From: Lathyrus oleraceus
Taxonomy: Eukaryota > Streptophyta > Magnoliopsida > Fabales > Fabaceae
Assembly: GCF_024323335.1 (NCBI RefSeq)
Contig: NC_066581.1
Location: 227,742,539-227,806,538, forward strand
Direction of reading: 5' to 3'
Length of the DNA stretch: 64,000 bases
Below, in pieces: positions 11,750 to 63,964 of this stretch. Numbering within the stretch: the stretch's first letter is position 1; each line of letters starts with the position of its first letter. The notes under the pieces are model-generated. The model was not told where the DNA came from. It did no database searches and saw only the letters and a program-made list of their open reading frames with translations. The translations under genes and the position numbers were made by a program.

Positions 11750-11753
11750 TTAG

Positions 11754-11765: not shown

Positions 11766-11869
11766 ATAGTCGGTCGAGTCGTAATTATTCTGTTTTCTCT
11801 GTACGGGATAGGTGTTGTGTAACCCTATCAGTACTTATTGTTTTAGCTTGTTGGGTTTTCAGAATAGAG

Positions 11870-15101: not shown

Positions 15102-16213
15102 GTATTCATCAGAAGCCGTCTGGGCTAATGCAACCGTTGACTATTCCAGGGTGGAAGTGGGATAGTATCAGTATGGATTTTGTGTCTGGTTTGCCGAGGA
15201 CAAATAAGAATTGTGAAGCTATTTGGGTGATTGTTGACAGATTGACGAAATCGGCTCATTTCATTCCGATCAGAATGGATTATCCGTTAGAGAGATTAGT
15301 TGAGTTGTATATTGAGAAGATTGTAAGTTTGCATGGTATTCCGTCGAGTATTGTTTCGGACAGAGATCCTAGATTTACATCGAAGTTCTGGGAAGGTTTG
15401 CAAAGGGCTTTGGGAACTAAGCTGAGATTGAGTTCTGCATATCATCCGCAGACTGATGGTCAGACTGAGAGGACGATTCAGTCATTAGAGGATCTTTTGA
15501 GAGCTTGTGTTTTGGAAAAGGGAGGTGCTTGGGATTGTTATTTACCTTTGATTGAGTTTACCTACAACAATAGTTTTCATTCGAGCATTGGTATGGCACC
15601 GTTTGAAGCTTTGTATGGTAGGAGATGTCGGACACCTTTATGTTGGTATGAGTCCGGTGAGAGTGTTGTGGTTGGACCGGAGATTGTTCAACAGACTACG
15701 GAAAAGATTAAGATGATTCAGGAGAAGATGAGAATTGCTCAGGGTCGTCAGAAGAGTTATCATGACAAGAGGAGGAAGTCACTTGAGTTCCAAGAGGGAG
15801 ATCATGTGTTTCTTCGTGTTACTCCGATAACTGGAGTTGGTCGAGCTTTGAAGTCGAAGAAGTTGACACCTCGATTTATTGGTCCTTATCAGATTTTGGA
15901 GAGGATAGGGGAGGTAGCCTATCGTATCGCTTTACCGCCGTCACTTGCGAATTTGCATGAGGTGTTTCATGTGTCTCAGTTGAGGAGGTACATTCCTGAT
16001 CCGTCGCATGTAGTCCAAGTAGATGATGTACAGGTGAGAGATAACCTGACTGTTGAAACATCACCTATGAGGATCGAGGATCGAGAGTTGAAGCAGTTGC
16101 GGGGTAGAGAGATTGCCTTGGTGAAGGTAGCTTGGGGAGGACCAGCAGGTGGCAATGTGACTTGGGAACTTGAGAGTCAGATGAAGGAGTCTTATCCGGA
16201 GTTATTCGCTTGA
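15102..16213 (+). pseudogene. Chromovirus integrase core and chromodomain-like C-terminus
   Basis: Integrase catalytic core with D in SISMDFVSGLP, D in SDRDPRFTSKFW and E in QTDGQTERTIQSLE, followed by the GPY/F-like block (KLTPRFIGPYQILERIGEVAYR). The C-terminal chromodomain-like segment (LVKVAWGGPAGGNVTWELE) is of the Tekay/Del kind. In chromoviruses this segment directs integration to heterochromatin. The core looks intact, but the N-terminal HHCC zinc domain is broken upstream. Confidence 0.87.
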
Positions 16214-21835: not shown

Positions 21836-23334
21836 TGTTAGATGCCCAAAAGTGCTTATTTGAGCTATCATATGTGGGCATCTTTTACTCTTTTTCCTTG
21901 CTAAAATTGTCAAAACCACATTTGTTTTACATGGAATGCATTACATTGATAAACAAGCTTGGTGCCTTTGATTTGTGTGTTATTGTGCAGGAAAAAGGCA
22001 TGAACTAATTGAAAATGAAGACACAAGAAAATTGGCAAAGGAACCAAAGAATACAAGCATTTCATCAGCCTGCTCGCTAGGCGAGGCTGTGGCGAAGCAC
22101 TGCTTCGCTAGGCGAGCTCCAGGCGAAAAGCCCCAGTAAATTGACAAATTAATTCGCCAGGCGAGCTGAAGGCGAAGGTGGTAGCGAGTTCATTCTGTTT
22201 TGGTGAAAAACGCAGCCAGCACTCACTCGCTAGGCGAAACTCTAGCGAGTCCCCAGCGAGCATTCCAGTAGCAAAACCTCTCAACCTCGCTGGGGCGAAG
22301 GTTGAAGTGTGTCCTTCGCTAGGCGAAGGTATGTTCGCTAGGCGAACATGACAGTTCAGCAGACCCTGTTTTCTCTGGGCGCAGGGGCCTTATGTGCCCA
22401 TATTAGACCCTCGCTAGGCGAGCCATTCTGCTCGCCTAGCGAACATGACAGCCCAGCAGTGGTCTATAAGTAGCAGGTGCCACTTTTGAGCACCATACCT
22501 TAGTTTTACCTCATTTTTCCACTTTTGTACTTTCTTCTAGATATTTTTGCAGCATTGTTCTTGGGAGCTTTTATGCCCTAATTTTCATTTCTCTTCATCT
22601 TAGAACCATCTTCTACAAAAAGAAGGTGGATTCCCATCCAACTTCGATTATCCGACTTGGATGTTGATCAACCTTCTTTCCTTACTTGCCGACCAAGCTA
22701 CCATGAAAATGAGTAGCTAAGTCATCCATTTGTCAAGGTTAGATGTAGGTGATTACTAGCTTTGTGTGTAAATGTAAGGATCCTCATATGTAAACTCTTT
22801 AATGGTAAATATATGATGAAAACTTTGTTTCTATTTAAAACTCTTTGTGTTGGTTTATGATCGAGAGATGTTTACCGACTCTTGACCTAGGTTTTCATCC
22901 AAACTTGTTTGTTAGCTAGAGATAGTAATGAATGATTTTGTTCACCATAAGGTTGAACCAAAAAGTTGTCATTTTGATAGATTGTGTTCGAGAGAAACAA
23001 TGGATCAAAATGGAAAAACTCACAATGTGTGTTCGAGAGAAACATATTGAGAGGACTTTGTGAAATTATTTATCATCTAAAGGAGTTTATAAGATTGTTG
23101 ACCGAGCAAATACATGCAAAGTGATCATTGAAACCTAACTTTGACAATATTTCTCATTTAATCAAACCATAACTTTTACCGCAATTTATTACTTTTTATG
23201 CAAGATAACTTGATTAAAAACAAAACCCTATTGTTACATTGAGCTACGATTAATACAACCATCGAACGGCGGTGATATCTTACAATCCCTGTGGATACGA
23301 TAACAAAAACCCGACACGAAAAATACTTTCAACA
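21836..23334 (+). repeat. Cyclops 5' LTR
   Basis: 1499 bp. A cluster of short inverted repeats around the core CGCTAGGCG fills 22,070-22,445. A possible TATA-like box is TCTATAAGTA near 22,464, about 20 bp after the hairpin cluster. The remainder is T-rich leader-like sequence ending TACTTTCAACA. Confidence 0.93.
22072..22445 (+). repeat. Cluster of CGC-TAG-GCG short hairpins in Cyclops 5' LTR
   Basis: At least six inverted repeats share the core CGC-TAG-GCG, with arms that vary together. Arms are CCTTCGC/GCGAAGG at 22,313-22,329, ATGTTCGC/GCGAACAT at 22,331-22,349, CTCGC/GCGAG at 22,073-22,085 and again at 22,410-22,422, plus weaker copies near 22,103 and 22,225. The last copy (22,431-22,444) is in reverse orientation. 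The same cluster is in the 3' LTR at about 32,831-33,204. Confidence 0.9.
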
Positions 23335-23355: not shown

Positions 23356-23460
23356 TTGTAAATTGATATTGCGAGCATCGCAATGGTTGTTTAAGTTTTA
23401 GCTTGTGAATTTTTGACTTGTGCTTGTAATTTGTTTGGTTTAGTGTGCAGCTTACGTTTT

Positions 23461-26400
23461 ATGCGAGGGCAAATCCCTGTGGACGAACTTCTTTTTGATC
23501 CTGAGATCGAGAGAACCGCAAGGAGGCTCAATAGCAAAACGAGACGTAGGAGGCAACAGGCTAGACAACGCCAAGAGCAAGGAGAAAGTTCTTCAACCAC
23601 AAATCCACCACCATTCGAACCAAACATGGAGCCACAACCACCACCACCTATTTCTACTCCATGCATCAATAGTCCAAGGAACACCGCTCAGTTTGCCAAC
23701 CACACCGGAAGGCAAGCTGAGATGAAAACGGGAACTCTGAATTTATTATATGGGAGTCCATTCACCGGAATGGACCATGAAGACCCATTTGCTTTTCTCA
23801 CAAAATTTTATGAGATAGCATTGGCTGCCGGAGTGGATCAGGCTCAGGAGCTTCCGTTGTTCAGACGATTATTTCCCCACGCTTTGCTCGGTAAAGCAAA
23901 GGATTGGTACCTAGATCAAACACCAGCCGTAATGACAGACTGGAACGTGTTAGAAGAGAAATTCATTGAAAGATTTTTCTCCCATAACCGATTCATGGAA
24001 TCAAAGACGGCCATCTCGGTGTTTTCTCAAGGAACCAGGGAATCTTTGAATGAAGCGTGGGAAAGATTCAAGTCCATGCTTCGGAAATGTAAAGGGCATG
24101 GATTTGATGAAATGACTCAAATCCATATCTTCAGAAATGGACTTCAACCAAACTGCAAAACGTTGTTGGATGCTACCTCGGGTGGCTCTTTATTGTCAAA
24201 AAGTGTCGAAGAAGCCACGAACATTATAAATCGAATGGCTTTGAATGATCTTCAGAGTCAAAGTCGAGGAAATTCTTTGAAGAAGGCGGGAGTGCTTGAG
24301 CTAGGGACGAACGATGCCATCCTTGCCCAAAACAAGCTCATCTCACAACAAGTGGAACTCTTAACGCAACAAATCAAAGAGTTAAGAGAACCGTCAAAAG
24401 CTAAACAAATAGCTTGTTGTGAACTTTGTAAAGGTGAACATGACACCGGATTTTGTCCACCTCCCGGTTTTGACGAAGTAAACTACATGGCCAATCAACG
24501 GGACTATCAACCGAGACAACAACAACAACAACAACAACCTTATCAACCGCACCCTCAAAATCAACAACAACAATTCCAAGGGAACCAAGGGTTCCAACCT
24601 AGAAGCAACTATTATCATAACCAAGGTTATGGAGGTGGTTCTTCTAGCCGTCAAAACCCTCCCCAAAATCCTTATCAACCTCAACCTCAACAACCGTCGG
24701 TCGTAACTTCTAAATTGGAAGAGACATTGACGCAATTCATGCAAATGTCAATGGCTAACCAAAAGAGCAATGACGCGGCCATAAAAAATCTCGAGACTCA
24801 AGTTGGGCAACTTGCTAAGCAACTCGCGGAACAACAAACCGGTCCTTCCTTTTCGGCAAACACGCAAACAAATCCTAATGCACATTGTAAGGCGATTATG
24901 ACGAGAAGTGGGAGGGAGTTGGGTAGTGAGAATGAAAAAAGAGTTGAGAGTGAACAAAGAGAGAAAGAAATTGAGGAGGAAATAGTGGAGGAAAATGTTG
25001 ATGGTGAAGTAGGAGTGTGGAGTGATGGTGAAGAAGTTGAAAAGAATAAAAATAATGGTGAAGTTGAAAAAGAGAAAGGTGTGGAGATGGAAAAAAATAC
25101 AAGTGATGAGGTAATAAGGGAGGTAGTGAAAAAGCCTAGATGGAAGAGTGCTAGAATTGCAAAGGGAAAGGAGGTAGTGAGCGCTACTCCGGTCCAAAAT
25201 CTTCCTTATCCTCATGCTCCTTCCAAAAGGGAGAATGAACGGCATTACGCCCAGTTCATGGATATTTTTAAACAGTTGCAAATCAACATTCCGTTTGCTG
25301 AAGCCTTGGAACAAATGCCAAAGTATGCCAAATTCATGAAGGACATACTAACCAAAAAGCGGAGGTATACGGAACCGGAGACCATCGTCCTTGATGCGAG
25401 CTGTAGTGCCATTATTCAAAGGACGCTTCCTAAGAAAGAGGTTGATCCGGGAAGAGTTACATTGCCGGTTAAAATTGGTGACGTGTATGTCGGGAAGGGA
25501 CTTATTGACTTGGGGTCGAGCATTAATCTTATACCTTTGTCAATTATCAAGAGGCTTGGCAACATTGAGATTAAGTCCATCCGAATGACGTTGCAATTGG
25601 CGGATAAATCGACAACCCATCCTCATGGCATAGCCCAAGATGTTTTGGTGAAGGTCGACAAATTCTTTTTCCCGGTCGATTTTATTGTTATTGATATGGA
25701 GGAAGATGATGATGCTCCGCTCATCTTGGGCCGACCATTCATGAAGACCGCGAGAATGATGATAGATGTTGATGACGGTTTAATGAAGGTGCGAGTTCAA
25801 AATGAGGAAGTCACATTTGATCTATTCGAGGCGATGAAGCATTCAAAAGATAGAAATGATAGCTTTCGCATCGATGTGATTGAAGACGCTATAATGGAGG
25901 TTTCAAAGCATATTCATGAGATATCTCCTATGGAGTTAGCTCTTGACGACTCATTGGAGGTTTTCACTGTTGAAGAAGAGCTGGCTCTTGAGGAATGCTT
26001 AAAGGAACTCGATAGTTTAGATGACCTACAACCATGGGAAGTAGAGGAGGAAAACTTGAAAAAGGAGGTTATTGACGAAAAAGCGCCAATTGAATTGAAA
26101 GTGCTACCCTCTACTTTGAAATATGTGTTCCTAGATGAGACCGAGGCAAAGCCGGTCATCATAAGCAACCTTTTGACAAAAGAAGAAGAAGCCCGCCTAA
26201 TCATTGTGCTAAAAACCAATCAAGAAGCTATGGGTTGGACTCTTTCCGATCTAAAAGGAATAAGTCCATCCTATTGTATGCACAAGATTTTGATGGAAGA
26301 GGATTTCAAGCCGGTAGCTCAACCACAACGCCGCTTAAATCCTACCATGAAAGAGGTTGTTCGAAAGGAAGTTGTGAAGCTATTGGATGCGGGAATGATT

Positions 26401-28986
26401 TACCCGATCTCGGATAGTCCGTGGGTTAGTCCCGTGCACGTGGTTCCGAAGAAGTGTGGAATGACCGTAATCCGAAATGACAAAGACGAATTGATCCCGA
26501 CCAAAGTTGCAACAGGGTGGAGAATGTGTATAGATTATAGACGGTTGAATACCGCGACTCGTAAGGACCATTTCCCACTCCCATTTATGGATCAAATGCT
26601 TGAAAGACTATCGGGCCAACAATACTATTGTTTTTTGGACGGCTACTCCGGGTACAACCAAATTGCGGTTGACCCGGTTGATCATGAGAAGACGGCTTTC
26701 ACGTGTCCGTTTGGAGTGTTCGCATACAGAAAAATGCCCTTTGGGCTGTGCAATGCACCAGCGACCTTCCAACGATGTGTCCAAGCCATTTTTGCCGATC
26801 TGATAGAGAAAACAATGGAAGTCTTCATGGATGACTTCTCGGTATTTGGTGGGACGTTTAGTCTATGCTTGGCAAATTTGAAGACGGTGTTGGAAAGGTG
26901 TGTGAAGACCAATTTGGTGCTTAATTGGGAGAAGTGTCACTTCATGGTGACCGAGGGGATCGTGCTAGGCCACAAAGTCTCTAGAAGGGGGCTTGAAGTG
27001 GATAGAGCTAAGGTTGAAGTAATTGAAAAATTACCCCCTCCGGTGAATGTGAAGGGCATCCGTAGCTTTTTGGGGCACGCGGGGTTCTACCGGCGCTTTA
27101 TCAAGGACTTCTCAAAGGTGGCTAAGCCTTTGAGCAATTTGCTCGCCAAGGACCAGGTATTTCTCTTCACCGAAGATTGTTTGCAAGCTTTTGAGGTTTT
27201 AAAAGAAAAATTGGTTACCGCTCCAATAATAGTCGCTCCCGATTGGAATGAAAATTTTGAACTAATGTGTGACGCGAGTGACTATGCTGTTGGAGCGGTA
27301 CTTGGCCAAAGAAAAGACAAAACTTTTCATGCGATACATTATGCGAGTAAGGTTCTTAACGAGGCTCAAATAAATTATGCCACAACGGAAAAAGAACTAC
27401 TTGCAATAGTGTATGCGCTAGAAAAGTTTAGGTCTTATCTTATAGGGTCTAAAGTTGTTGTGTACACCGACCACGCGGCGATTAAATATCTGCTAACCAA
27501 GCCGGATTCGAAGCAAAGGCTCATCCGTTGGATCCTCTTGTTACAAGAATTCGATGTAGAAATCAAAGACAAGAAGGGGTCGGAAAACTTGGTAGCGGAT
27601 CATTTATCCCGATTAGTGAACGTGGAGGTTACCGCGTCGGAAAAAGAAATCCGGGAAGAATTTCCTGATGAAAAATTGTTTAAGGTTCAAGTTAGGCCGT
27701 GGTTTGCAGACTTTGCAAACCACAAGGCTAGTGGTTTTGTGCCAGCCGACCTAACTTCGAACCAAAAAAGGAAGTTCCTTTCGGATGCGAAGTATTATGT
27801 TTGGGATGACCCATACTTGTTTAAGTTGGGTAGCGATAACCTGTTAAGGAGATGCGTAACTGGTGATGAAGCCCAGAGCATCCTTTGGCATTGTCACAAC
27901 TCGCCTTATGGCGGACATTATAATGGGGTTAGAACGACCACTAAAATTCTTCAATCGGGATTTTATTGGCCAACTATTTTCAAAGACGCACATACCCATG
28001 CGCAAAATTGTGACAGTTGCCAAAGAAGCGGTGGGATAGGTAAGAGAGATGAGATGTCTCTCCAAAATATCCAAGAAGTGGAAGTATTTGATTGTTGGGG
28101 CATAGATTTCGTAGGACCTTTCCCACCCTCTTATGGGAATGAGTACATGCTTGTCGCTGTCGATTATGTCTCTAAGTGGGTTGAGGTGATTGCCTCACCT
28201 CGGGCGGATGCCAAAACGGTGATAAAATTTTTGAAGAAAAACATATTCTCCCGTTTCGGAACCCCCCGAGTGTTGATAAGTGACGGAGGGTCACACTTTT
28301 GTAATGCACCTTTGGAAACTATTTTAAAACATTACGGTGTATCGCATAGGGTGACAACTCCGTATCACCCTCAGGCTAACGGGCAAGCTGAGGTCTCTAA
28401 TCGAGAGATTAAGAGAATCCTCGAAAAAACCGTGTCTAATTCAAAAAAGGAGTGGTCCCAAAAATTGGACGAAGCATTATGGGCCTACCGTACAGCCTTT
28501 AAAGCTCCAATTGGCCTAACTCCCTTTCAATTGGTATTTGGTAAAACTTGCCATTTGCCGGTTGAATTGGAGCACAAGGCCTTGTGGGCCCTAAAGTTTT
28601 TAAATTTTGAACATGATTTGGCCGGTAACAAAAGGAAAGTGCAACTACTTGAGTTGGAGGAGATGCGCAATGCCGCATACCACTCAAGTTGGTTGTACAA
28701 GGAAAAGGCAAAAAAGTATCACGACAAGAAGCTTCGTAACAAAGAATTTGTGCCCGGACAATTGGTCCTATTGTTCAACTCCCGGTTGAAATTGTTTCCC
28801 GGGAAGTTAAAATCAAAATGGTCCGGGCCATTTCGGGTGAAAGAGGTGAAGGAGTACGGGGCCATTGTCATTGAAGACATGGACAAGAAAGATAGTTGGA
28901 CCGTGAATGGCCAACGATTGAAAGTGTATCTCGGCGGTCATGTGGATCGCGAGAGTTGTGCTCAGCCGCTCGATGCTCCTCTGTGA
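23461..28986 (+). CDS. gag-pol: Cyclops gag-pol polyprotein, intact (1841 codons)
   Basis: Single uninterrupted ORF; I chose ATG 23,461 (MRGQIPVDELLF) because the frame upstream has no other ATG. Order: gag core (residues ~90-260, FLTKFYEIALAAG), a zinc-knuckle-like CELCKGEHDTGFC (C-x2-C-x3-H-x4-C, one residue shorter than usual), Gln-rich and charged linkers, and protease with DLGSSINLIP, as in Athila. Then RT (MCIDYRRLNTATRKDHFP, catalytic FMDDFSVFG), RNase H (LMCDASDYAVGAVLGQ, VVYTDHAAIKYL) and integrase. Integrase has an HHCC domain (CHNSPYGGHYNG, CDSCQRSG) and catalytic D (WGIDFVGP), D (ISDGGSHF) and E (EVSNREIKRILE). All key residues are present, so the enzyme set may be functional. RNase H and integrase act in the virus-like particle and nucleus. 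Confidence 0.95.
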   Translation: MRGQIPVDELLFDPEIERTARRLNSKTRRRRQQARQRQEQGESSSTTNPPPFEPNMEPQPPPPISTPCINSPRNTAQFANHTGRQAEMKTGTLNLLYGSPFTGMDHEDPFAFLTKFYEIALAAGVDQAQELPLFRRLFPHALLGKAKDWYLDQTPAVMTDWNVLEEKFIERFFSHNRFMESKTAISVFSQGTRESLNEAWERFKSMLRKCKGHGFDEMTQIHIFRNGLQPNCKTLLDATSGGSLLSKSVEEATNIINRMALNDLQSQSRGNSLKKAGVLELGTNDAILAQNKLISQQVELLTQQIKELREPSKAKQIACCELCKGEHDTGFCPPPGFDEVNYMANQRDYQPRQQQQQQQPYQPHPQNQQQQFQGNQGFQPRSNYYHNQGYGGGSSSRQNPPQNPYQPQPQQPSVVTSKLEETLTQFMQMSMANQKSNDAAIKNLETQVGQLAKQLAEQQTGPSFSANTQTNPNAHCKAIMTRSGRELGSENEKRVESEQREKEIEEEIVEENVDGEVGVWSDGEEVEKNKNNGEVEKEKGVEMEKNTSDEVIREVVKKPRWKSARIAKGKEVVSATPVQNLPYPHAPSKRENERHYAQFMDIFKQLQINIPFAEALEQMPKYAKFMKDILTKKRRYTEPETIVLDASCSAIIQRTLPKKEVDPGRVTLPVKIGDVYVGKGLIDLGSSINLIPLSIIKRLGNIEIKSIRMTLQLADKSTTHPHGIAQDVLVKVDKFFFPVDFIVIDMEEDDDAPLILGRPFMKTARMMIDVDDGLMKVRVQNEEVTFDLFEAMKHSKDRNDSFRIDVIEDAIMEVSKHIHEISPMELALDDSLEVFTVEEELALEECLKELDSLDDLQPWEVEEENLKKEVIDEKAPIELKVLPSTLKYVFLDETEAKPVIISNLLTKEEEARLIIVLKTNQEAMGWTLSDLKGISPSYCMHKILMEEDFKPVAQPQRRLNPTMKEVVRKEVVKLLDAGMIYPISDSPWVSPVHVVPKKCGMTVIRNDKDELIPTKVATGWRMCIDYRRLNTATRKDHFPLPFMDQMLERLSGQQYYCFLDGYSGYNQIAVDPVDHEKTAFTCPFGVFAYRKMPFGLCNAPATFQRCVQAIFADLIEKTMEVFMDDFSVFGGTFSLCLANLKTVLERCVKTNLVLNWEKCHFMVTEGIVLGHKVSRRGLEVDRAKVEVIEKLPPPVNVKGIRSFLGHAGFYRRFIKDFSKVAKPLSNLLAKDQVFLFTEDCLQAFEVLKEKLVTAPIIVAPDWNENFELMCDASDYAVGAVLGQRKDKTFHAIHYASKVLNEAQINYATTEKELLAIVYALEKFRSYLIGSKVVVYTDHAAIKYLLTKPDSKQRLIRWILLLQEFDVEIKDKKGSENLVADHLSRLVNVEVTASEKEIREEFPDEKLFKVQVRPWFADFANHKASGFVPADLTSNQKRKFLSDAKYYVWDDPYLFKLGSDNLLRRCVTGDEAQSILWHCHNSPYGGHYNGVRTTTKILQSGFYWPTIFKDAHTHAQNCDSCQRSGGIGKRDEMSLQNIQEVEVFDCWGIDFVGPFPPSYGNEYMLVAVDYVSKWVEVIASPRADAKTVIKFLKKNIFSRFGTPRVLISDGGSHFCNAPLETILKHYGVSHRVTTPYHPQANGQAEVSNREIKRILEKTVSNSKKEWSQKLDEALWAYRTAFKAPIGLTPFQLVFGKTCHLPVELEHKALWALKFLNFEHDLAGNKRKVQLLELEEMRNAAYHSSWLYKEKAKKYHDKKLRNKEFVPGQLVLLFNSRLKLFPGKLKSKWSGPFRVKEVKEYGAIVIEDMDKKDSWTVNGQRLKVYLGGHVDRESCAQPLDAPL

Positions 28987-29864
28987 GCATCGCACCGTCG
29001 AGCTTAGCCGACGTTAAACAAGCGCTAGTTGGGAGGCACCCCAACATTGTAAGTATTTACTGTTTTTATGTTGTTTGTGTTGGGTTACATTGTGCTAATA
29101 CCATTCAGGATGAACTTGCAAGTGCTGCATTTGAAAAAGAATTTGCTGTCATGCTCGCTAGCAGCTCGCTAGGCGAGGCAGTAGCGAGCATGCTCGCTAG
29201 GCGAGGCAGCAGCGAGCGCTGCAGGACAGTTTTCTATTTAAAACTCAGCAGGGTCATTTTGCCCCAAATTTACAAAACTTTTCTGAACGGCTCTGCTGAG
29301 AAATTTGTGCTAAGCTTCTCAAACTCTCTCATTTGCATCTCTATCACCAACACTTGCTCTTTTCGGTCGATTGCAAACTCTTCTCACTTCACATTTCCGA
29401 ATCCGTGTAACTAAGGTTTGCCCTACTACATTTTTCTTTTTGTTTGAACTCTTAATTTCCAATTTGAATGGCAAATAGGATGAGTGTGGTATGGGAAACA
29501 TTTAGGTTGCATGTGGTATTTTGGAGTTTGCAATTTTTGGGATTTTAGGTTTTGAATTGGGGAATTTTTAGGTTTTGCATGCGAATAGGTCATCCCCAAT
29601 TCCATAGAACGGTTAATTGCTTGAGAAATCATTAGGTTCTGATGTGGGAACCATTAGAGTATGGGTTTTGGGGGAGAATCTCTGAACATGCTGAAAAACC
29701 CCAAAACCCGTAAGGTTCGCTAGCACTCGCTAGGCGACCCTGGGGCGAGCGTTCGCTGCCACTTCGCTAGGCGAAGCAGCAGCGAGCAAGGCAGTCTTTT
29801 AAATTATGCTTTGATGGCTAATCTGTGTGTTTGGTGTGTGTTGTTTCTTTGTATATTTTGCAGA
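28987..29864 (+). other. Cyclops spacer between gag-pol and envelope-like ORF
   Basis: 878 bp with no credible ORF. It carries two clusters of CGC-TAG-GCG hairpins (29,153-29,216 and 29,715-29,788) like those of the LTR. It ends in a T-rich tract and TTTTGCAG (to 29,863), a good 3' splice-site match one base before the next ATG. Another possible acceptor, ACCATTCAG, is at 29,100-29,108. Confidence 0.75.
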
Positions 29865-32594: not shown

Positions 32595-34093
32595 TGTTAG
32601 ATGCCCAAAAGTGCTTATTTGAGCTATCATATGTGGGCATCTTTTACTCTTTTTCCTTGCTAAAATTGTCAAAACCATATTTGTTTTACATGGAATGCAT
32701 TACATTGATAAACAAGCTTGGTGCCTTTGATTTGTGTGTTATTGTGCAGGAAAAAGGCATGAACTAATTGAAAATGAAGACACAAGAAAATTGGCAAAGG
32801 AACCAAAGAATACAAGCATTTCATCAGCCTGCTCGCTAGGCGAGGCTGTGGCGAAGCACTGCTTCGCTAGGCGAGCTCCAGGCGAAAAGCCCTAGTAAAT
32901 TGACAAATTAATTCACCAGGCGAGCTGAAGGCGAAGGTGGTAGCGAGTTCATTCTGTTTTGGTGAAAAACGCAGCCAGCACTCACTCGCTAGGCGAAGCT
33001 CTAGCGAGTCCCCAGCGAGCATTCCAGTAGCAAAACCTCTCAACCTCGCTGGGGCGAAGGTTGAAGCGTGTCCTTCGCTAGGCGAAGGTATGTTCGCTAG
33101 GCGAACATGACAGTTCAGCAAACCCTGTTTTCTCTGGGCGCAGGGGCCTTATGTGCCCATATTAGACCCTCGCTAGGCGAGCCATTCTGCTCGCCTAGCG
33201 AACATGACAGCCCAGCAGTGGTCTATAAGTAGCAGGTGCCACTTTTGAGCACCATACCTTAGTTTTACCTCATTTTTCCACTTTTGTACTTTCTTCTAGA
33301 TATTTTTGCAGCATTGTTCTTGGGAGCTTTTATGCCCTAATTTTCATTTCTCTTCATCTTAGAACCATCTTCTACAAAAAGAAGGTGGATTCCCATCCAA
33401 CTTCGATTATCCGACTTGGATGTTGATCAACCTTCTTTCCTTACTTGCCGACCAAGCTACCATGAAAATGAGTAGCTAAGTCATCCATTTGTCAAGGTTA
33501 GATGTAGGTGATTACTAGCTTTGTGTGTAAATGTAAGGATCCTCATATGTAAACTCTTTAATGGTAAATATATGATGAAAACTTTGTTTCTATTTAAAAC
33601 TCTTTGTGTTGGTTTATGATCGAGAGATGTTTACCGACTCTTGACCTAGGTTTTCATCCAAACTTGTTTGTTAGCTAGAGATAGTAATGAATGATTTTGT
33701 TCACCATAAGGTTGAACCAAAAAGTTATCATTTTGATAGATTGTGTTCGAGAGAAACAATGGATCAAAATGGCAAAACTCACAATGTGTGTTCGAGAGAA
33801 ACATATTGAGAGGACTTTGTGAAATTATTTATCATCTAAAGGAGTTTATAAGATTGTTGACCGAGCAAATACATGCAAAGTGATCATTGAAACCTAACTT
33901 TGACAATATTTCTCATTTAATCAAACCATAACTTTTACCGCAATTTATTACTTTTTATGCAAGATAACTTGATTAAAAACAAAACCCTATTGTTACATTG
34001 AGCTACGATTAATACAACCATCGAACGGCGGTGATATCTTACAATCCCTGTGGATACGATAACAAAAACCCGACACGAAAAATACTTTCAACA
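32595..34093 (+). repeat. Cyclops 3' LTR
   Basis: 1499 bp, equal in length to the 5' LTR. Differences I noticed include AAACCAC/AAACCAT, AAGCCCC/AAGCCCT, TTCGCC/TTCACC, GGCGAAACT/GGCGAAGCT, GAAGTGT/GAAGCGT, GCAGACC/GCAAACC, GTTGTCA/GTTATCA and TGGAAAA/TGGCAAA. The hairpin cores are intact in both copies. Confidence 0.93.
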
Positions 34094-50502: not shown

Positions 50503-53500
50503 TGTCGCATCGCGCGAAAAACCGGCGGGAAAAGAAAGAACAACAGAGCCGCCACCGTGCGTTATTTATCCCAAAAGAGGGAAAGGAAACGCTCAGAGTA
50601 AACCTGGGAAAGAACATGGTCTCGCGACCAAAGAGAAAGGGTTCGGGAGTCGGTTATGCGAAGGGAAGGTATTAGCACCCCTACGCATCCGTAGTACTCT
50701 ACGGGATCCACGCACAAAAGGAAGGAAATTGGTTGCTAAACACTGCTCAAATACTCACACACACTGGCTGAAAGAAACGCAAGAGACTGACCGAAACTGA
50801 CTCGGCAGGATATCGTATCCTGGGCCTACTTAGTCTATCAGGCATAGACATCAGAGTCGAAGTAGTTCGGACTGGGGAAACGACACATGCTCGCTAGGAT
50901 ATCGCATCCTATGCATACGTATCTTCTCGGACGAGAGAAGAATCAGAGCATTCGTAGCTCGGCTAACACGCACACAAACAAACAGACAAAGGCGAACGTG
51001 GAGCCCGACTGCCAATCACTGGACTTATGTCAGCATCCGAACCTAAACACCACAACAGATAGAGGCAAACATGGAGCCCAAATGCCAATCACTGGACTTA
51101 CATTGACATCCGAACCTAAACAACACAACAGATAGATAGGGAGTCGGGGACTCAGCCTATAACTGTCAAGCACACACTCAAACAAACAGACAACAAATTG
51201 CTAAGGAGTCAGGCACTCGAGCCTAGCAACTGTCAAACGACTCACACAAAAAAGAAAAAAGGGCGCCCGGAGAGATCAGCTCAATCTCCTGCCTACATAC
51301 TTCATCTGGTATGAAGATCAGGGCGATGTAGTTCCCCTACGCAGGGACAAGGGTCTAGCCTAACCAGATAACAGAGGGAGACACAACTAGGGAGACTACG
51401 ACTCGAGCCTAGATGTTATCATGCAAATCATCCCTAAGTTAAGGTTTCTAGCTAAATGGCACAAGGGCCAACCTATCCTAAGTATGGCTCACACAGGGAG
51501 CAAGCCACACACACTTAACTTGCACAGGAAGCAAGCCAAGCAAAACCTACTTGCGCAGGAAGCAAGTCTAAACTAAACCTAACTTGCACAGGAAGCAAGT
51601 CAAACAATCCTATCTTGCACAGGAAGCAAGTCAAACTATCCTAACTTGCACAGGAAGCAAGTCAAACTATCCTAACTTGCACAGGAAGCAAGTCAAACAA
51701 TCCTACAAGCACAGATAGCACACGCTATACACAAACAAGTGGCTCAAACAAGGGTTAGGTTTTAGTCAAGGGGTCATATCAACCTCAACAAACAAACCTC
51801 TGGAATGGGGTGAGTGTTGCTCTTAACCTTGCCATTGAGGGGCTAAGGTGAAGCAGATGAAAGGATGAAGTGAGGATGAGACCTCACAGCTCTTATCCCT
51901 GGCCTGGGAGAGCTCAAGACAAGAATGTGTGGGTTCAGAAAGTGGGAACCCTTCTACACATTTAAGACTGACTCAACTGTGCAATGGCACAAGATCTTGG
52001 GTTTTTACCTGTAATGCATCAACACAGTGGTGTGAGCAAAGCAGATGACACACTGAATAGTGGGGGATAGATTGCATATCCCTACCTTCCACCAATTGCC
52101 TCTTCGCTTAGGAGGTCTTTGACTCTATGCAAGGACAAAAGTAAACAACCACAAACATTGCCTCTTAAGGAGGACTTCAGACAGTTGCCTGGCCAAGTAA
52201 CAAGCCAGGTCTTCCAGACTACATGAAGTGAAAGAGACATACCTCAATGCAAATTGCTTATACAAGCAAAGCAAAGCAAAAAGTTCACAAGGAACTAAGC
52301 AACTAAAGTACCTGAAACAGTCAAGCAGATGTTAGTATGCAACAAAACAAACAGAAACAGAAACCAACAGTCAATTGGAGGCACATGGATGTGCAAGGCA
52401 CAAGGCTTAAGGCATGTGAGCCAAGCCACCTACAAAACAAAGAGGGTTAGACAGTGATATTTGAGCAAGCTCAATCAAAAAGAATTGGTCACAATGGCCA
52501 TTTGATGGTCAACCTGAAATCGCAAACTCAAAGGTGAGTAACAGGACCACTAGGGCAAGCCTAGGGTCAAAAGTGAATGAGAAAGTCAAAACAGCAAGGG
52601 TTAAGTATCCAAAATCATGTTCAAACAATTAAGAAACAGAACCAATTGGGTTCACACTCATATCAATCACTATCATCATTTCATGAACCATTTAGGTCAA
52701 AACATGGCAAACAGAAGCTCATAGAAGTCAACAGAAAGACTGGACTCAAAACCAATCTAAACATTTTTCAAAAATCACCAAATAAATCATGATCAAACCT
52801 AACACATAGCATGGTAAGCATGTCAAATTTCATCCCATTTGGACAAGTGGAAGGCAGTCAATGAAAATCAGAAAGACAAAGCCAATTTGAACATGCTCAA
52901 AGAAGTCAACCAAACATGCATCAACTTAGAAAAATCATAAGTCAAGAATGGTGTATGATAAATGAATGGGACTAAAGCCATGGCAAAGATGAGGATGTCT
53001 AGTTATCACATGTCAAATTTCATGTCCATCCAATAAAGTATGAGAATTTCACAAATGCAATGGGAACATGTGTCACACAAGGTCAACATTTGACTAGGCA
53101 GGGGAGAAAATCTCAAACAATTAGGAAAATAGCTCAAATAAATCCAAGAAAATTCACATGTGAACTAGACATACAAGAGTAGGTTCATGCAAAATTTGGG
53201 GTCATTTGGATGTAAGGAAGCATGTGAACAAAAATTGTGAAAGTGTATGTCATCCATGTAGCAACAAATATAGCACATAACTTCAAAAAATCATAACCAG
53301 CAAACCACAAATGATAAATTCACAAACTTTATACCAAAATCACCATGAATGTGTCTAGTTTAAGCACAAAAAATTTGGGAACCATTGGATACATTCTCAT
53401 CATTTCACAAATGTTTTGGCAAGATGTACAAAATTTGGTCACATGTCACAAACCCTAAGGCCATTTAAAAACCACTCATCCAAAAATTCTGGAAAAATTA

Positions 53501-56500: not shown

Positions 56501-57597
56501 CATGGGCTGCATAATTTGACCTTGCAAACACCTTCTAAATGACATTTATGAGCTGTCCCAATTGGCCAAATGCTGAAAACATGTTTGAGTCAAAAAGTCA
56601 ACTCTTGGTCAAACTTCCATTTAAATGAAAAAGGTCAAAATATGCCATTTTGATTGGTGAAGTTTTGGCTCATGAAATTTATATTTTTGGAAAGAGGATG
56701 AAAAATGTGGTTTGTAGGAAAAAACCCCACCAAATTTGGCCAAACGGTTTGGGAGATATGGCTCTTTGAAGTTCAAGATTTTCTGAAATCGATTCGATCA
56801 TAACTTGCCAACCACACATGGGAATTGAGAGTTCTAGGACTTTTTGGAAATGGGAGAACAAGATCTTCAACTTTCATGTTGGGCAAAAATTCATTTGAGG
56901 CTTGTATCACAATGTAAGTTTGAGGATCAAAACTTTCCATTTTTGGTAAGTTTCAGTTACAGGCCCAGTTTCCGTTTTGGGAAATTCATGATCTGGCTTC
57001 AAATTCTTCCATGATGGGGTTTGGCATGATATATGATGACTATTTGGACATGAATGAACTCCCACAAACCAATTCCAATCATCAAATCTCTGATTAAATG
57101 GACAGTTGACCAACAGTTGACTATTAGGGTTTTTGTCTGATTATGCATTGACTGATGAATTCCAAACCCTAATTCCTTGAGAATTTGACTTCAAATGATG
57201 TCCCAAGTTGTATGAACTCTTGATTGTTGACCATGGTGCCCAAATTCCACAAGAATGACCACCATCCACTGCTTTGACTGACAGTTGACTTTTTTAGGGT
57301 TTTTGACTGTCTGTGTATGAACTGCTGACCTCTGAGCCCTTAACCCTTGACCAAAATACTTCAAATAGACCTCCAAACCATGTGAACTTGTTGGACAATC
57401 CCCAAGGCCTTGGTTCAATGAGAAATTCCTCTGCTTGCTTGGTTGACTGATCAGGAGGTTGGTTTGACCTAATTCCTTGACTGTCTTGCATTTGAGGCAA
57501 CTGGGAACAATGCAAATGATATGCAAGGGATCAGGATATGCTATGACCTAATATGAAAATGTATGCATAATGGTAGGTGCAAATTTGAGGTGCTACA
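50503..57597 (-). repeat. Ogre 3' LTR, ~7.1 kb
   Basis: On the plus strand from TGTCGCATCGCGCG (first base after copia protease) to GGTGCTACA; in sense it starts TGTAGCACCTC and ends GCGACA. The 3'-proximal block holds GGTGCTAATACCTTCCC and the GCACGGTGGCGGCTC-like block, as in the other Ogre-type LTR at 35,818-40,400. 7.1 kb is long for an LTR, so unrecognised insertions are possible. No credible coding ORF. GCAAGGCAAGG and TGACAGAAAA-like motifs recur at 54,500-56,450. Confidence 0.75.
51486..51693. repeat. 31-bp tandem array of small hairpins in Ogre LTR
   Basis: Seven copies of an inverted repeat with arms ACTTGC/GCAAGT and loop ACAGGAA, at about 51,486 (variant GGCT/AGCC), 51,518, 51,549, 51,582, 51,613, 51,644 and 51,675. 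The last four are exactly 31 bp apart. Confidence 0.9.
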
Positions 57598-57612
57598 GCT
57601 GCCCCTATTCAA
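57598..57612 (-). other. Ogre polypurine tract
   Basis: In sense, TTGAATAGGGGCAGC lies directly before the LTR start TGTAGCACC. Confidence 0.75.
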
Positions 57613-57729
57613 TCAGCTGGGAACCCGAACGGATGATAGCAACGGCTGTCAGACTTTCAGGGTAAACAGGGATTGAATACCAAAGAACCGTAGAATTTGC
57701 ACAGACTGGATATGATACCAAAGAACCAC

Positions 57730-58785
57730 GTCATTTACCGATGACAAACTGCATGACAGCTTTAGAAAAAAGCGAAACCATTTACCGATGGTTGGAGAAC
57801 TGGAAGCTTGATATTTACCGATATCAACTTCAGCACGACCATTTACCGATGGCGTCTGGGGAAAATAAACTTCTGAAAAACAACAACCATTTACCGATGG
57901 TTAGAACTTGATATTTACCGATATCAACTTCAGCATGACCATTTACCGATGGCTGCTGGGAAAAACGAATTGATGTAATAAGGAAGCAAGACCATTTACC
58001 GATGGTGGCTTCAAAGAAACTTGACATTTACCGATGTCAACTTCAAACTGGCCATTTACCGATGGCTACTGTAACTGGGGATCCGATATTTACCGATATC
58101 GAAGAAATACGGGGCCATTTACCGATGGCATCTCCACTTGGGGGAGGAACAAAATCCTTGTGGTGATACCAGACGAGACGTTTACCGACGACTTCTGGGG
58201 ATCTTGATTTTATTGACCAGACATTTACCGATGACTGGAATGAGACTCGATGTTTTACCGATATCGAAAGATGATGTTTACCGACATCAAAAAAATGACC
58301 AGACATTTACCGATGACTGGGAATGAGACTCGATGTTTACCGACATCGAAAGATGATGTTTACCGACATCCAAAGAATGACCAGACATTCACCGATGACT
58401 GGGATGGGACACGATGTTTACCGACATCGAAAGATGATGTTTACCGACATCCAAAGAAATGACCAGACATTTACCGATGACTGGGAATGAGAAATTTATT
58501 GGGGAGATACAAATATTTGCAACTGGAAACCAGATAGGACATTTACAGATGACTTTACTGGGGATTTCCAGCTGGGGATCTATCAGGCATTTACCGATGA
58601 CTGAGGAAAAGACTCGATGTTTACCGACACCGAAGCAATGGTGTTTACCGACACCAAAATGATGACCAGACATTTACTGATGACTGGGTGAGACTCGATG
58701 TTTACCGACACCGAAACAATGGTGTTTACCGACACCAAACAAAGAAACACTTGCGGGTGTTGATATGACACTTACTGGTATCACA
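57730..58785 (-). repeat. Array of ~31 TTACCG hairpins in the Ogre 3' UTR
   Basis: Small inverted repeats around an almost invariant plus-strand TTACCG (sense loop CGGTAA). The arms differ from copy to copy but remain complementary: GTCAT/ATGAC, AACCAT/ATGGTT, TTGATAT/ATATCAA, TTGACAT/ATGTCAA, CGATAT/ATATCG, CGATGT/ACATCG, TGGTGT/ACACCA. At 58,217-58,545 three hairpins form a unit repeated with an exact 82-bp period (58,217, 58,299, 58,381, 58,463). Tandem repeats in the 3' UTR of Ogre elements are known; the hairpin covariation is my observation. Confidence 0.92.
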
Positions 58786-60030
58786 AGAACGACATTTTAG
58801 ATATGTCAAGGCAAGGTTGACCACTTGCTGGGGGTCTCACTGAGGAGAAACAAACTTTCCGTCACCATCGGGTGAGGAAATAAACCTCTGTCACCATCGG
58901 GTGAGGAAATAAACCTCTGTGGGGAATAAACAATTCTGAATGCTGTCAAGAGCAACTGTAGCAGTCTTGCTGTGCTGATGTTGAATGAAATGATCCGCCT
59001 CTGTCGGGGATACGGTCTGGTGAAGTTAACACATGAATGCATATGTTTGAATTTTTCTATGGCGTAATGCTCCATATTGAATGGGAATGCTACGCAATTT
59101 TTGAGGATGCAATGATTACTACATGCAAAATGCAAATGGACCCTGGCTAGGGAGCCGAAATGATCAGATACTCTGACTCTGTGGGGAGACTCCTCTTGGG
59201 GAAATATTCTGCGGGGAACTCTGCTTGAGGAATGGTAAAGCGACTTCACACTCATGTTGGAGAATATCACTGCTGCTGGGAAAAGGTAAACTCCGCTGGG
59301 GATATCCTTCAGTCCACAGATAGGATAAATGCTGGAGATAAAATTCAATGAACCTGCCTCGCTCGGGGAGGAAATCGGCAAATACAGGCCTGCTGGGGAC
59401 AGGCCATCCTTAGATCTGTTGGGGAATAGAAAACACTATCCACAGACGTCTTCGCAGGGGAACATAACTCTGATAGCTTTCAAGCTTGCTTGGGGAAAAT
59501 ATCTGTTGAGGAAACGTCCTCACAGATGTCAACCTGAAAAACAGTCACAACAAAATGCCCCCAGGGGATACATGGACAAGATACGCTCAAGTGTTCTCAA
59601 CATTCAAAATGATTTTCAAAGGTTTTATCATTCTGCACATTGTTGTGTAGCCTTTATGTTCTTATATATGCAATGCTTATCAAAAATTCGGACATTTTGC
59701 AAACAAAACAGTAAAAATAAAAACAAGAGAGCTATTTATCTGAATAACGACTTTTATTAATTGAAATGTGCCTGAAGAGGCAAAATACATTGGGAAGCAA
59801 TTCCTAGAAAGAGGTAATTGCGTACAAAAGGAAAAATCTATCCTAATGGCAACGTGAACACGGCATCCACTACTTCCCAATTCTGTTATAACTCACAGAT
59901 CATCAGTTTTCTTCCCAACTCCTTGCTTTCTGAGAAGAACGACTGGACGGATCACATCTTTCGAGATGGCAGACGATAAAGCTTGATGAAGTACAGACAA
60001 CTCAGACTGTAGTCTTCGCTTTAATCCCTA
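58786..60030 (-). other. Ogre 3' UTR, middle part
   Basis: Non-coding. It contains a 29-bp perfect tandem duplication (58,861-58,889 and 58,890-58,918) and many scattered copies of CTGGGGA or TTGGGGAA (58,827-59,515). No ORF is supported; the longer open stretches lack any family motif. Confidence 0.6.
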
Positions 60031-60039
60031 ACTTTTGCC

Positions 60040-60229
60040 TGGATCGCCCTTTCGGGTTTTCAATCCACCGGGATACCCATTTTTGCCTAAGCCGCCCTTG
60101 CGGGTTTTCGACTTACCGGGTGTACAATTTTTTTATTTTTATCCCTAATTTTTGCCCGAACCTTTTCTTTCTGTTTTTGGTTCGCCGGGATGCCCCTTTT
60201 TTGCCTGGACTCTTTTTTCTTTTCGTCCA
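60040..60229 (-). repeat. Four hairpin units directly after the Ogre pol stop
   Basis: Units at 60,040-60,067, 60,088-60,115, 60,157-60,184 and 60,206-60,229; the first three are each 28 nt. In sense each is flanked by a CCCGG-like block before and GGCAAAA after. Arms: TGGATTG/CGATCCA, TAAGTCG/CGGCTTA, CGAACC/GGTTCG, TGGAC/GTCCA. The first two also share an AAAA bulge, a CCC/GGG upper stem and GNRA loops (GAAA, GCAA). Confidence 0.88.
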
Positions 60230-60239
60230 GCGGGTCAAT

Positions 60240-63200
60240 TTATGCGAAGTATTTTTTGACTACATCTGAGTTGACAGGAGACGGAAAATCCTCACCATCC
60301 ATAGTTGTAAGCATCAAGGCTCCGCCGGAGAAAACCTTCTTCACAACATACGGACCTTCGTAATTAGGAGTCCACTTGCCCCTGTTGTCTGTACCGGGAG
60401 GGAGGATCCTCTTCAAAACTAGATCACCGATCTGATAGCTTCGAGGACGCACTTTCTGATCAAAGGCTCGCTTCATCCTTCTCTGATACAACTGTCCATG
60501 ACATACAGCTGCTAGTCGTCTCTCCTCGATAAGGCTCAACTCGTTAAACCTTGTTCGAATCCACTCGGCTTCGTCCAGCTTGACATCCAATAAAACTCTC
60601 AGAGAAGGAATCTCCACTTCCACAGGTAGGACAGCTTCCATACCATACACAAGGGAGTAGGGGGTTGCCCCGGTCGACGTACGTACTGAGGTACGGTACC
60701 CATGCAAAGCGAAAGGCAACATTTCATGCCAATCCTTGTACGTAACGACCATCTTCTGCACAATCTTCTTGATATTCTTGTTCGCCGCTTCTACAGCACC
60801 ATTCATCTTCGGTCTGTAAGGAGAAGAATTGTGATGTTCAATTTTGAAATCTTTACAAAGTTCTTTCATCATCTTGTTATTGAGATTCGAACCGTTGTCA
60901 GTGATGATTCTCTCAAGAACTCCATAACGACATATGATTTCTTTCTTGATGAACCGGGTAACCACTTGTTTGGTAACGTTAGCATAAGAAGCTGCTTCTA
61001 CCCATTTGGTGAAATAGTCAATCGCAACCAAGATGAAGCGATGTCCATTCGAAGCAGTAGGCTCAATCTTCCCAATCATATCAATGCCCCACATGGCAAA
61101 CGGCCAAGGCGAATTCATGATATTCAGAGGGCTTGGTGGTACGTGCACCTTATCAGCATAGATTTGACACTTATGGCACTTCCGAGCATACTTGAAACAA
61201 TCGGATTCCATAGTCATCCAGTAATAACCCGCTCTCAACAATTTCTTAGCCATTGCATGTCCGCCGGCATGAGTACCGAAGGAACCTTCATGCACTTCTT
61301 GCATTAACATGTCTGCCTCGGGTCTGTCCACGCATCTGAGCAAGACCATGTCAAAGTTTCTTTTATACAACACATCATCCTGATTCAAGTAGAAGCTTCC
61401 AGCTAGCCTCCTCAGGGTTTTCTTGTCATTCTTAGACGCACCTTCAGGATACTCTTGAGTCTTGAGGAAATTCTTGATGTCATAAAACCACGGCTTCTCA
61501 TCACCCACAACAGACTCGGCTGCAAACACATACGCAGGCCTCTCGAGTCGATTCACTTCAATATGTGGCACATGATTCCACCAATGAACTTTGATCATAG
61601 ACGACAAAGTAGCCAAAGCATCAGCCATTTGATTCTCATCCCGGGGGACATGATACAACTTCACCTTCTTGAAGAACGTCAGTATTCTTCTGGTATAATC
61701 TCTATACGGAATCAAATGCGGCTGGTTCGTATTCCAATCTCCATTGACTTGATTGACCACTAGAGCGGAATCTCCAAATATGTCAAGGGTTTTGATCCTC
61801 AGATCAATGGCTTCTTCTATCCCCATGATACAAGCCTCATACTCAGCTTCGTTGTTGGTGACGTCAAACGTCAATCTGGCAGAAAAAGGTATATGAGCAC
61901 CTTTGGGATTAATCAATACTGCCCCAACACCGTTACCGTTCATGTTCACAGCCCCATCAAACATCAGTGTCCATTTGTCATCCGGGTCCGGTCCTTCCTC
62001 GACGAGAGGTTCTTCGCAGTCTTTCATCTTGAGATACATAATGTCTTCATCAGGGAATTCAAACATCATAGGCTGATAATCTTCAATCGGTTGTTCGGCG
62101 AGATAGTCTGACAGAATACTACCTTTGATGGCTTTCTGCGACGTGTACTGAATATCATACTCCGTTAAGATCATCTGCCAACGGGCAACACGTCCGGTGA
62201 GAGCTGGCTTCTCAAAGATGTACTTTACTGGATCCATCTTAGAAATCAACAAGGTAGTATGGTTCAACATATACTGCCTCAGTCGGCGAGCAGCCCAGGC
62301 CAAAGCACAGCAAGTTTTCTCGAGCAGTGAATATCTTGTTTCACAGTCGGTAAACTTTTTGCTAAGGTAGTATATGGCATGCTCTTTTCGACCAGACTCG
62401 TCATGCTGTCCCAATACACACCCCATCGAGTTCTCAGTCACTGACAGGTACATTATCAGAGGTCTCCCAGGAACTGGAGGTATAAGGATTGGAGGTTTCT
62501 GCAAATACTCCTTAATCTTGTCAAAAGCTTTCTGACAATCATCATTCCACTTGATCGCTTGATTCTTTCTAAGCAGTTTGAAGATTGGTTCACATGTAGC
62601 AGTTAGATGAGATATGAACCTTGCAATGTAGTTCAACCTCCCTAAAAACCCACGGACTTGCTTCTCCGTTTTCGGTTCAGGCATCTCTTGAATAGCTTTG
62701 ACTTTAGCTGGATCAACCTCGATCCCTTTCTCACTGACAATGAAGCCTAAGAGCTTCCCGGACCTCACCCCAAACGTACACTTGTTCGGATTCAACCTTA
62801 GTCTGAACTTTCTCAACCGGTCGAACAGCTTCTGCAAATTAACCAGGTGCTCCTCTTCTGTCTGCGACTTCGCAATCATATCATCCACGTACACTTCAAT
62901 TTCTTTGTGCATCATGTCATGAAAGAGAGTCGTCATTGCCCTCTGATAGGTAGCACCAGCATTCTTTAGCCCAAATGGCATCACCTTATAGCAGAACGTG
63001 CCCCAAGGTGTAATGAATGTCGTCTTTTCCATGTCCTCTGGCGCCATCTTGATCTGATTATATCCGGAGAAACCATCCATGAAAGAGAATACCGAGGATT
63101 GAGCCGTATTATCAACCAATACATCAATGTGAGGTAATGGGAAATCATCTTTCGGACTCGCTCTATTCAAATCCCGGTAATCGACACACATTCTGACTTT

Positions 63201-63717
63201 ACCATCCTTCTTCGGCACAGGAACGATGTTGGCCACCCACGGTGGATAACTGGTAACAGCCAGAAAACCCGCATCCCACTGCTTCTGAACCTCTTCCTTG
63301 ATCTTAGTTGCCATGTCAGGACTCGTTCTACGAAGCTTCTGCTTGACTGAAGGACATCCTTCTCTAAGAGGTAATCGGTGCATCACAATATCTGTATCCA
63401 ATCCAGGCATATCTTGATATGACCAGGCAAATATCTCCACATATTCTCTCAGCATCTCAATCAGCCTCCTCTTGACAGAGTCCTCTAAGGCAGCCCCAAT
63501 CTTGATTTCTCTTTTGTCGTCCTTAGTACCCAGATTAACAGTTTCCAACTCCTCCTGATGAGGTTGGATGACCCTTTCCTCCTGCTTCAGTAACCTGGCC
63601 AATTCTGCAGGGAGTTCACAGTCTTCCTCACTCTCCTCTTCAGCTTGATAGATGGGATTATCGAAATCATACTGAGCCATAACAGAACTGTTCATAGTGA
63701 ATGCCATAAGATCGCTT
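60240..63717 (-). CDS. pol: Ogre pol: reverse transcriptase, RNase H, archaeal-type RNase H, integrase
   Basis: Uninterrupted frame of about 1,159 codons from the probable splice acceptor (CATGCAG, AG at 63,718-63,719) to a TAA at 60,240. Order: leader, RT (MCVDYRDLNRASPKDDFPLP, YVDDMI at 62,877-62,894), a degenerate Ty3 RNase H, then archaeal-type RNase H (LMFDGAVNMNGNG, NNEAEYEACIMG, FGDSALVVNQ, supplying D, E, D). Integrase follows, with the zinc domain (HEGSFGTHAGGH, CHKCQIYAD) and catalytic D (WGIDMIGKIEP), D (ITDNGSNLNN) and E (NGAVEAANKNIKK). All key residues are present. The frame is open back to 63,836, but that part is probably intron. In Ogre, splicing joins this frame to protease. 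Confidence 0.92.
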
Positions 63718-63964
63718 CTGCATGTTTGATGCTTTGTTTTAGAAAAAGAGTTCAATAAAGTCACCAAAAACAAAAACATTGCCATTTTTATTGTTTTGAA
63801 AAAAGTGAAAACAGAAAATAGAAAGACAAGGATCACAAAGTTTGTTCAAAAAATGTCCTTCATTAATGATAATCATTAAAACATGATGAGGCCCTACAAA
63901 AATGAATCACTACGCCTTGGGCAGAACGTAGGATTTTCATGCAAAATGACAAAACAACAGAAAA
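63718..63964 (-). other. Probable 3' part of the Ogre intron
   Basis: Between the stop of the upstream reading frame (63,965) and the acceptor CATGCAG. In sense it is A/T-rich. An intron at exactly this place, between protease and RT, is known for Ogre elements. The donor site is not evident in the short stretch visible here. Confidence 0.5.

Follow-up and report, generated by a model that had tools for sequence, protein, structure and literature searches.

An array of covarying hairpins with a near-fixed loop in the 3' untranslated region of an Ogre-type retrotransposon of Lathyrus oleraceus

The window analyzed here, that is, the whole stretch of 64,000 nucleotides from contig NC_066581.1 of Lathyrus oleraceus, contains the 3' side of a retrotransposon, the 5' part of which lies beyond the window edge. 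The pol open reading frame (ORF) of this element (60,240-63,836, minus strand; 1198 amino acids) encodes, by Pfam domains, reverse transcriptase (RT; RVT_1, residues 207-367), RNase H (RT_RNaseH, 456-560), a second RNase H-like domain (RVT_3, 626-743), and integrase (rve, 912-1009). By this order of domains, which are those that the sections of PMC7004042 used here list for Ogre, the element is of the Ogre type, as the initial annotation had it. The 3' untranslated region (UTR), from the pol stop codon to the 3' long terminal repeat (LTR), occupies about 2.6 kb (57,598-60,239, minus strand), with the LTR edge placed by a recurrent junction sequence (57,587-57,614) that contains the presumed polypurine tract (PPT; 57,598-57,610, minus strand) and runs into the 3' LTR, which presumably begins at 57,597 and extends toward lower coordinates.

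Within this 3' UTR and adjoining the PPT, between the pol ORF and the putative LTR edge, lies an array of 30 hexaloop hairpins (57,725-58,785, minus strand); its assignment to the 3' UTR thus stands. The sense strand of the array is the minus strand, since the pol ORF is on that strand, and the sense loop is CGGUAA or a one-base variant of it. The window contains 47 copies of the plus-strand form of the loop, TTACCG, compared with 10.9 expected, a count reached by none of 100 shuffles; 27 of these 47 matches fall inside 57,735-58,731, every one on the plus strand. Together with three one-base variants, TTACCG makes up 32 loop-like sites in the array, and a stem is present at 30 of these, close to the 'about 31' hairpins counted originally; the two stemless sites are at 58,255 and 58,555. 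The loop had also been called invariant, which holds as near-invariance but not strictly: it is exact in 26 of the 30 stemmed units, and the other four carry TCACCG (58,389), TTACAG (58,543), or TTACTG (58,674 and 58,772). Each unit reads arm-CGGUAA-arm in the sense RNA, with a closing U-A pair, and most units follow one another at a loop-to-loop spacing of 23-53 nt. Elsewhere in the 3' UTR, outside the array, there are two exact 29-nt tandem copies (58,861-58,920, minus strand).

The arms of the units vary, and all the co-varying complementary arm pairs listed in the initial annotation are found in the array, for example, TTGACAT/ATGTCAA, with seven Watson-Crick pairs (58,021-58,040, minus strand). 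Eight units have a mismatch at pair 4 with pairing resumed outside it, seven of these being A-A (U-U in the sense RNA) and one G-A; the hairpin at 58,299-58,320 (minus strand; plus-strand arms CCAGACAT/ATGACTGG) exemplifies the eight-pair type with the sense U-U mismatch at this position. In two further hairpins (58,614-58,633 and 58,695-58,714, both minus strand), pair 4 is G-U only in the sense RNA; as noticed at the outset, these units, 58,621 and 58,702, show A-C on the plus strand. The contrary unit reported near 58,250 is the one at 58,255, which contains an extra T and, when given a 7-base loop by eye, indeed has one pair that goes the opposite way. An 881-nt piece of the sense strand folds with a z-score of -3.1 relative to 20 shuffles, and a search of the whole window against the curated RNA families of Rfam 15 at the gathering score yielded no matches.

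Hypervariable tandem repeats in the 3' UTRs of Tat/Ogre retrotransposons are recognized, as are these repeats as sources of satellites, in the sections of PMC7004042 used here, which cite Macas 2009 and Neumann 2019; this had been anticipated. The array resembles those repeats in the type of element, the location downstream of gag-pol, and the tandem units of varying number. Unlike here, the same sections of PMC7004042 treat the repeats as tandem repeats and satellite sources, with no role given, and the words 'hairpin', 'palindrome', 'secondary structure', and 'inverted repeat' do not occur in its main text. A literature search, mainly at the level of titles and abstracts and largely of open-access papers, found no hairpin arrays described for the 3' UTRs of Ogre or other LTR retrotransposons, in agreement with the initial remark that no description of such an array was known to its author. 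Within the literature so covered, tandem repeats in Ogre 3' UTRs are already known, whereas we found no account of them as covarying RNA hairpins with a near-fixed loop.

Such hairpins are not confined to the window. When at most one mismatch is allowed, the pattern GATNTTTACCGANATC matches the whole 3.795-Gb genome 33,586 times in the forward and 32,753 times in the reverse direction, compared with 251 and 241 for the reversed pattern used as the control. We analyzed 40 loci of contig C1 that were selected by hairpin patterns, that is, by the presence of the motif, together with the window. In these 41 loci, 1003 exact-loop hairpins point the same way and 2 the opposite way, and the number of hairpin units per locus ranges from 3 to 47. 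At least 31,813 copies of the PPT/LTR junction are present in the genome; among the 42 C1 junctions listed below 16 Mb, 22 had, by eye, no exact hairpin-pattern match within about 7 kb among the matches listed. A junction-chosen sample of 28 loci was assembled from 20 of these 22 and eight more, two of them pattern-less and six from outside that listing. The junction was recognized in 67 of the 69 loci (L014 and L024 were left out), and all 67 of the resulting UTRs contain at least one hairpin with the counted loop words. Collection of the 3' UTR from other Ogre copies, the check proposed originally, thus shows that the hairpins recur across 67 UTRs of the same genome. By a tally made by eye, 11 of the 28 junction-chosen UTRs contain CNGUAA hairpins, 12 have CGAUAA as the sole CNGUAA/CGAUAA word, and 5 (L082, L084, L086, L087, and L100) have neither. 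One locus with an L035-type higher-order array, L073 (near C1:35.8 Mb), contains eight two-hairpin units in succession at steps of about 84 nt, as in early satellite growth. Comparison of one 16-base unit with viral contigs produced 31 stretches with one match each, which we read as chance.

The loop is constrained in a specific manner. Across the 41 loci, TTACTG (CAGUAA in sense) recurs in as many as 18 copies within one context and TTACAG (CUGUAA) in as many as 15, whereas TTACCA (UGGUAA), which the same CpG should yield by change on the opposite strand, appears in 8 contexts, each private to one copy. Because the shared variants are at sense position 2 and TTACCA is private, the loop is better written CNGUAA. 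Near-fixation extends to the closing U-A pair and, within the loop, to positions 1 and 3-6; the arm sequence is free. When hexaloop hairpins with at least five Watson-Crick pairs are considered, a criterion that overlooks 4-bp stems, CGGUAA is carried by 15 inner-arm types in 47 copies; among the 26 loops listed, those other than CNGUAA, CGAUAA, and CCGCGU have at most two inner-arm types each. Other copies contain hairpins with further loops, CCGUUG, CCGCUG, and CCGCGU. The arms CTTGATAT/ATATCAAG also carry other hexaloops, CCGCGU in L098 and CAGUGA in L096 (sense), and loop words are therefore replaceable on one stem, which weighs against a loop-read signal. The iron-responsive element, which has the loop CAGUGN, was rejected as a match: the main loop here is CGGUAA, and CAGUGA was seen in L096 only.

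Covariation of the arms was assessed in a set collected irrespective of pairing, namely, all occurrences of CGGUAA, CAGUAA, CUGUAA, or CGAUAA across the 67 UTRs (1427 sites, 604 distinct 28-mers, 149 of them common to two or more copies). By corrected mutual information, stem pairs 2, 6, 4, and 5 rank first to fourth among the 325 column pairs of the shared 28-mers, followed by pairs 7 (7th), 1 (11th), and 3 (15th), with pairs 8-11 ranking 121, 33, 57, and 286; in all 604 28-mers, pairs 2 and 4 are 1st and 2nd, pair 1 is 5th, pair 6 is 10th, pair 3 is 15th, and pair 5 is 47th. In the CNGUAA set (66 22-mers common to at least three copies, out of 318 distinct ones), 90.2% of the 396 cells pair, compared with 25-43% when slid, and two-sided changes are found in 108 cells versus 43 after shuffling. 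Two of the five measures applied to this set, the number of pairs with two-sided change (6) and the number of further pair types (16), were not above the shuffles. RNAalifold predicts a 5-pair stem for the same set, with two-sided changes at every pair. Under a tree-based null (a home-made procedure, not R-scape, in which columns evolved independently on a FastTree tree with as many changes as observed), the summed statistic of 357.5 compares with at most 239.8 across 2000 runs; pairs 2, 3, 4, and 6 are each below 0.01, and pairs 1 (0.14) and 5 (0.07) are not significant on their own. Hence, the helix as a whole exceeds the tree-based null, and the outcome that the initial annotation regarded as fatal to its reading, no covariation beyond phylogeny, is not what we found. 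In a seemingly single slot of the array, that of the hairpin at 58,021-58,040, pair 3 is C-G in the window and other copies, U-G in L011, L012, and L025, and U-A in L020; these differences may also come from replacement by a neighboring unit.

Two-sided changes can also arise in one step if quasi-palindromes are corrected by template switching with no selection involved. This route would be expected to leave perfect arms, yet the commonest unit type is mismatched (54 of 423 units) and one G-U form persists in 23 of the 41 loci. Moreover, such correction is strand-neutral, whereas the mispairs shared between copies are not (20 versus 2, as detailed below), and we consider this explanation highly improbable. 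Neither the bias toward sense G-U pairs nor the near-fixed loop is accounted for by inversion or template switching alone, the other outcome named originally as damaging.

The strand on which pairing matters can be approached through the mispairs. Decay after insertion is expected to generate both transition mispairs about equally, because the two arms of a palindrome present similar contexts, one on each strand; selection on the sense RNA would retain those mispairs that form G-U in it. At exact loops, the internal mispairs that two or more copies have in common comprise 10 sense G-U versus none of the other kind, compared with 19 versus 16 among private ones (p 0.008); for the four loop words in the 67 UTRs, the shared mispairs are 20 versus 2 and the private ones 43 versus 27 (p 0.009), all these counts assuming that arm pairs are independent, which is weakened by relatedness. 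The private mispairs lean to the sense side too, and some of them may be inherited. In the final 110 nt of unpaired sequence adjoining the PPT, these mutation classes are balanced, shared 16 versus 15 and private 9 versus 10 (15 versus 11 and 8 versus 9 in a 100-nt version), and the stems differ from these controls with p values of 0.003 (110 nt) and 0.02 (100 nt). A 150-nt control (shared 28 versus 41, private 11 versus 11) was discarded because it overlaps the PPT-nearest hairpin in some copies. Given that the shared mispairs are skewed to sense G-U and that this skew is absent from unpaired sequence, we consider it likely that selection acts on pairing in the sense RNA. Shared arm mismatches, for their part, are mostly A-A on the plus strand (U-U in sense), and none is T-T.

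Folding energies give a less uniform picture. Folding of the transcript was among the checks proposed initially; global folding of 600-nt segments from the 67 UTRs favors the antisense strand (mean -151.1 versus -146.8 for sense, with sense lower in 23 of 67; in excess over 10 shuffles, sense is ahead in 9 of 67 only). Accordingly, global folding was rejected as proof of strand and is counted as evidence against sense-RNA selection. The antisense advantage is explained in part by an internal U-G pair that closes the antisense loop and adds 1 kcal/mol with three test arms. When the shared arms are combined with a neutral loop, the mean is -5.01 in sense versus -4.20 in antisense, and sense is favored in 44 of 89 cases, antisense in 31, with 14 equal, a moderate preference. 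Counts of G-U-containing hexaloop stems in 20 UTRs did not separate the strands (124 sense, 113 antisense). The CGAUAA sites have sense G-U in 164 of 211 cases and antisense G-U in 8, and these were excluded as evidence on the strand since RNAfold prefers another hairpin for the typical unit; on this prediction, CGAUAA units may fold otherwise.

The strand bias also bears on a function at the DNA level, in which the palindromes or TACCGACAT, which we take to be the drought/cold element (DRE), would serve as transcription factor sites or cruciforms near the 3' LTR. There are 5 copies of TACCGACAT in the array (57,700-58,800), and, repeated over many thousand genomic arrays, this sequence could form a large pool of factor sites. 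However, the 5 copies account for just 5 of the 32 loop-like sites, the arms vary too much for half-sites, and pairing in DNA offers no cause for a sense G-U bias, which makes a DNA-level role very unlikely.

The sense-RNA hairpins of the Ogre 3' UTR are probably kept by selection; covariation above the tree null and the shared sense G-U bias both support the original suggestion that compensatory change here signifies selected RNA structure. The strongest rival is that the hairpins are a by-product without a function for the element: they would stall reverse transcriptase, provoke strand transfer, and so be duplicated, perhaps later seeding satellites. Strand transfer is the proposed source of Ogre 3' UTR repeats in the sections of PMC7004042 used here, tandem growth and the range of 3 to 47 units would be explained, and stalling on sense RNA would likewise favor sense G-U. 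Such a process gives no reason for the loop to stay near-fixed across 15 inner-arm types or for the pattern of variable loop positions, and we regard it as unlikely.

Sister copies carry other loop classes, and the matter is therefore wider than a single array. In 10 of the first 20 junction-chosen UTRs, we found a second module, with CAG-ending hexaloops (NNYCAG) on 4-bp Watson-Crick arms, which is present in all five UTRs that lack CNGUAA and CGAUAA. In 11 UTRs rich in this module, the arms are CGGT/ACCG (73 sites), CGAC/GTCG (49), TGGC/GCCA (36), and, more rarely, CGAT/ATCG (5), CAGT/ACTG (4), and the G-U form CGGT/GCCG (5). Four Watson-Crick pairs flank a loop of size 6 in 170 of 463 sites in these UTRs, compared with at most 9 sites at any other loop size from 3 to 9. 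The second module occurs alone or alongside the CNGUAA module; several copies have both, and in L099 it lies farther from the PPT than the first. Covariation does not single out its stem: across all 67 UTRs, pairs 1-5 rank 200, 215, 3, 220, and 270 of 325 for distinct sites and 85, 91, 12, 51, and 8 for shared sites. Shared inner mispairs are 4 sense versus 1 other, some of them at sites that are not hairpins, and pair 5, outside the 4-bp stem, is often A-C in sense. The second module as a hairpin module is accordingly the less firmly tested one.

The CAG endings, as in 3' splice sites, fit a possible role in RNA processing, whereby the loops would bind host factors such as U1 snRNP and damp splicing or early polyadenylation before the 3' LTR. 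We take GGUAA to resemble a 5' splice site that could bind U1 snRNP, with CGGUAA and the closing A presumably able to pair with the 5' end of U1 through five bases. Against this, CAGUAA and CUGUAA loops are inherited, and CGAUAA words, in which the GU is lost, are common in other copies; we consider such a role distinctly unlikely.

We return, then, to hairpins selected in the sense RNA. Stems of free sequence that carry a constrained loop correspond to the design of hairpins that proteins read, and the balance tips slightly toward the loop being a putative signal read by a protein. The sense (genomic) RNA can fold into about 30 small hairpins; a protein would read the exposed CNGUAA loop regardless of the stem sequence; many copies of it could bind side by side, with the row of hairpins giving avidity; and the bound row might mark the genomic RNA for capture. 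The hairpins recognized by coat proteins of MS2-type phages, in which a protein reads the loop word that a stem presents and tandem copies are useful, are comparable in working principle. The likeliest reader would be the element's own Gag in packaging, followed by RNA export through a host or element protein. Nucleocapsid knuckles favor unpaired G. Gag ranks first among the candidates since the localization and the packaging of Ty3 RNA both need UTR or POL sequence (PMC4974528, in the sections used here); packaging by Gag in particular is a tentative and doubtful proposal by analogy. Yeast Ty1/Ty3 likewise have cis-acting RNA structures, with a Ty3/gypsy-type genomic RNA as the shared feature, and Ty3 dimers are proposed to make contact through a palindrome at the 5' end; no tandem row of tens of hairpins with one loop word is mentioned in the sections of PMC4974528 and PMC11381356 used here. 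We therefore view the 3' UTR as a candidate multivalent cis-acting RNA element, with a well-supported structure and a putative ligand and role.

More speculatively, but still conceivably, the 'hypervariable' Ogre 3' UTR could be a modular RNA recognition platform, in which loops are code words on drifting stems and at least two unrelated classes (CNGUAA and NNYCAG) have been exchanged or combined among lineages, presumably with a matching protein for each; satellites arising in such UTRs would in that case trace back to signals at the RNA level. If the RNA structure is indeed selected, this would explain the persistence of the region despite its sequence churn, help to show by what means giant plant retrotransposons recognize their own RNA, and make the array a natural set of RNA tags. 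Ogre elements account for 45% of the Lathyrus sativus genome, according to the sections of PMC7004042 used here.

The window contains other palindromes as well. Another retroelement (gag-pol ORF 23,413-28,986, plus strand) has 16 CGC-TAG-GCG and 2 CGC-CTA-GCG triloop hairpins (22,075-22,433, 29,167-29,765, and 32,834-33,192) both in the repeated ends and in the interior; the outer arms of these hairpins differ (CTCGC/GCGAG and TTCGC/GCGAA). Near both ends of a further element (gag, RT, and integrase ORFs, 11,753-16,213), GTTAACCGGTTAAC forms tandem palindromes (10,377-10,583 and 16,831-17,037), six copies each with one arm type. Finally, about seven copies of a 31-nt tandem repeat at 51,492-51,705 contain CTTGC-ACAGGAA-GCAAG hairpins, again with one arm type.
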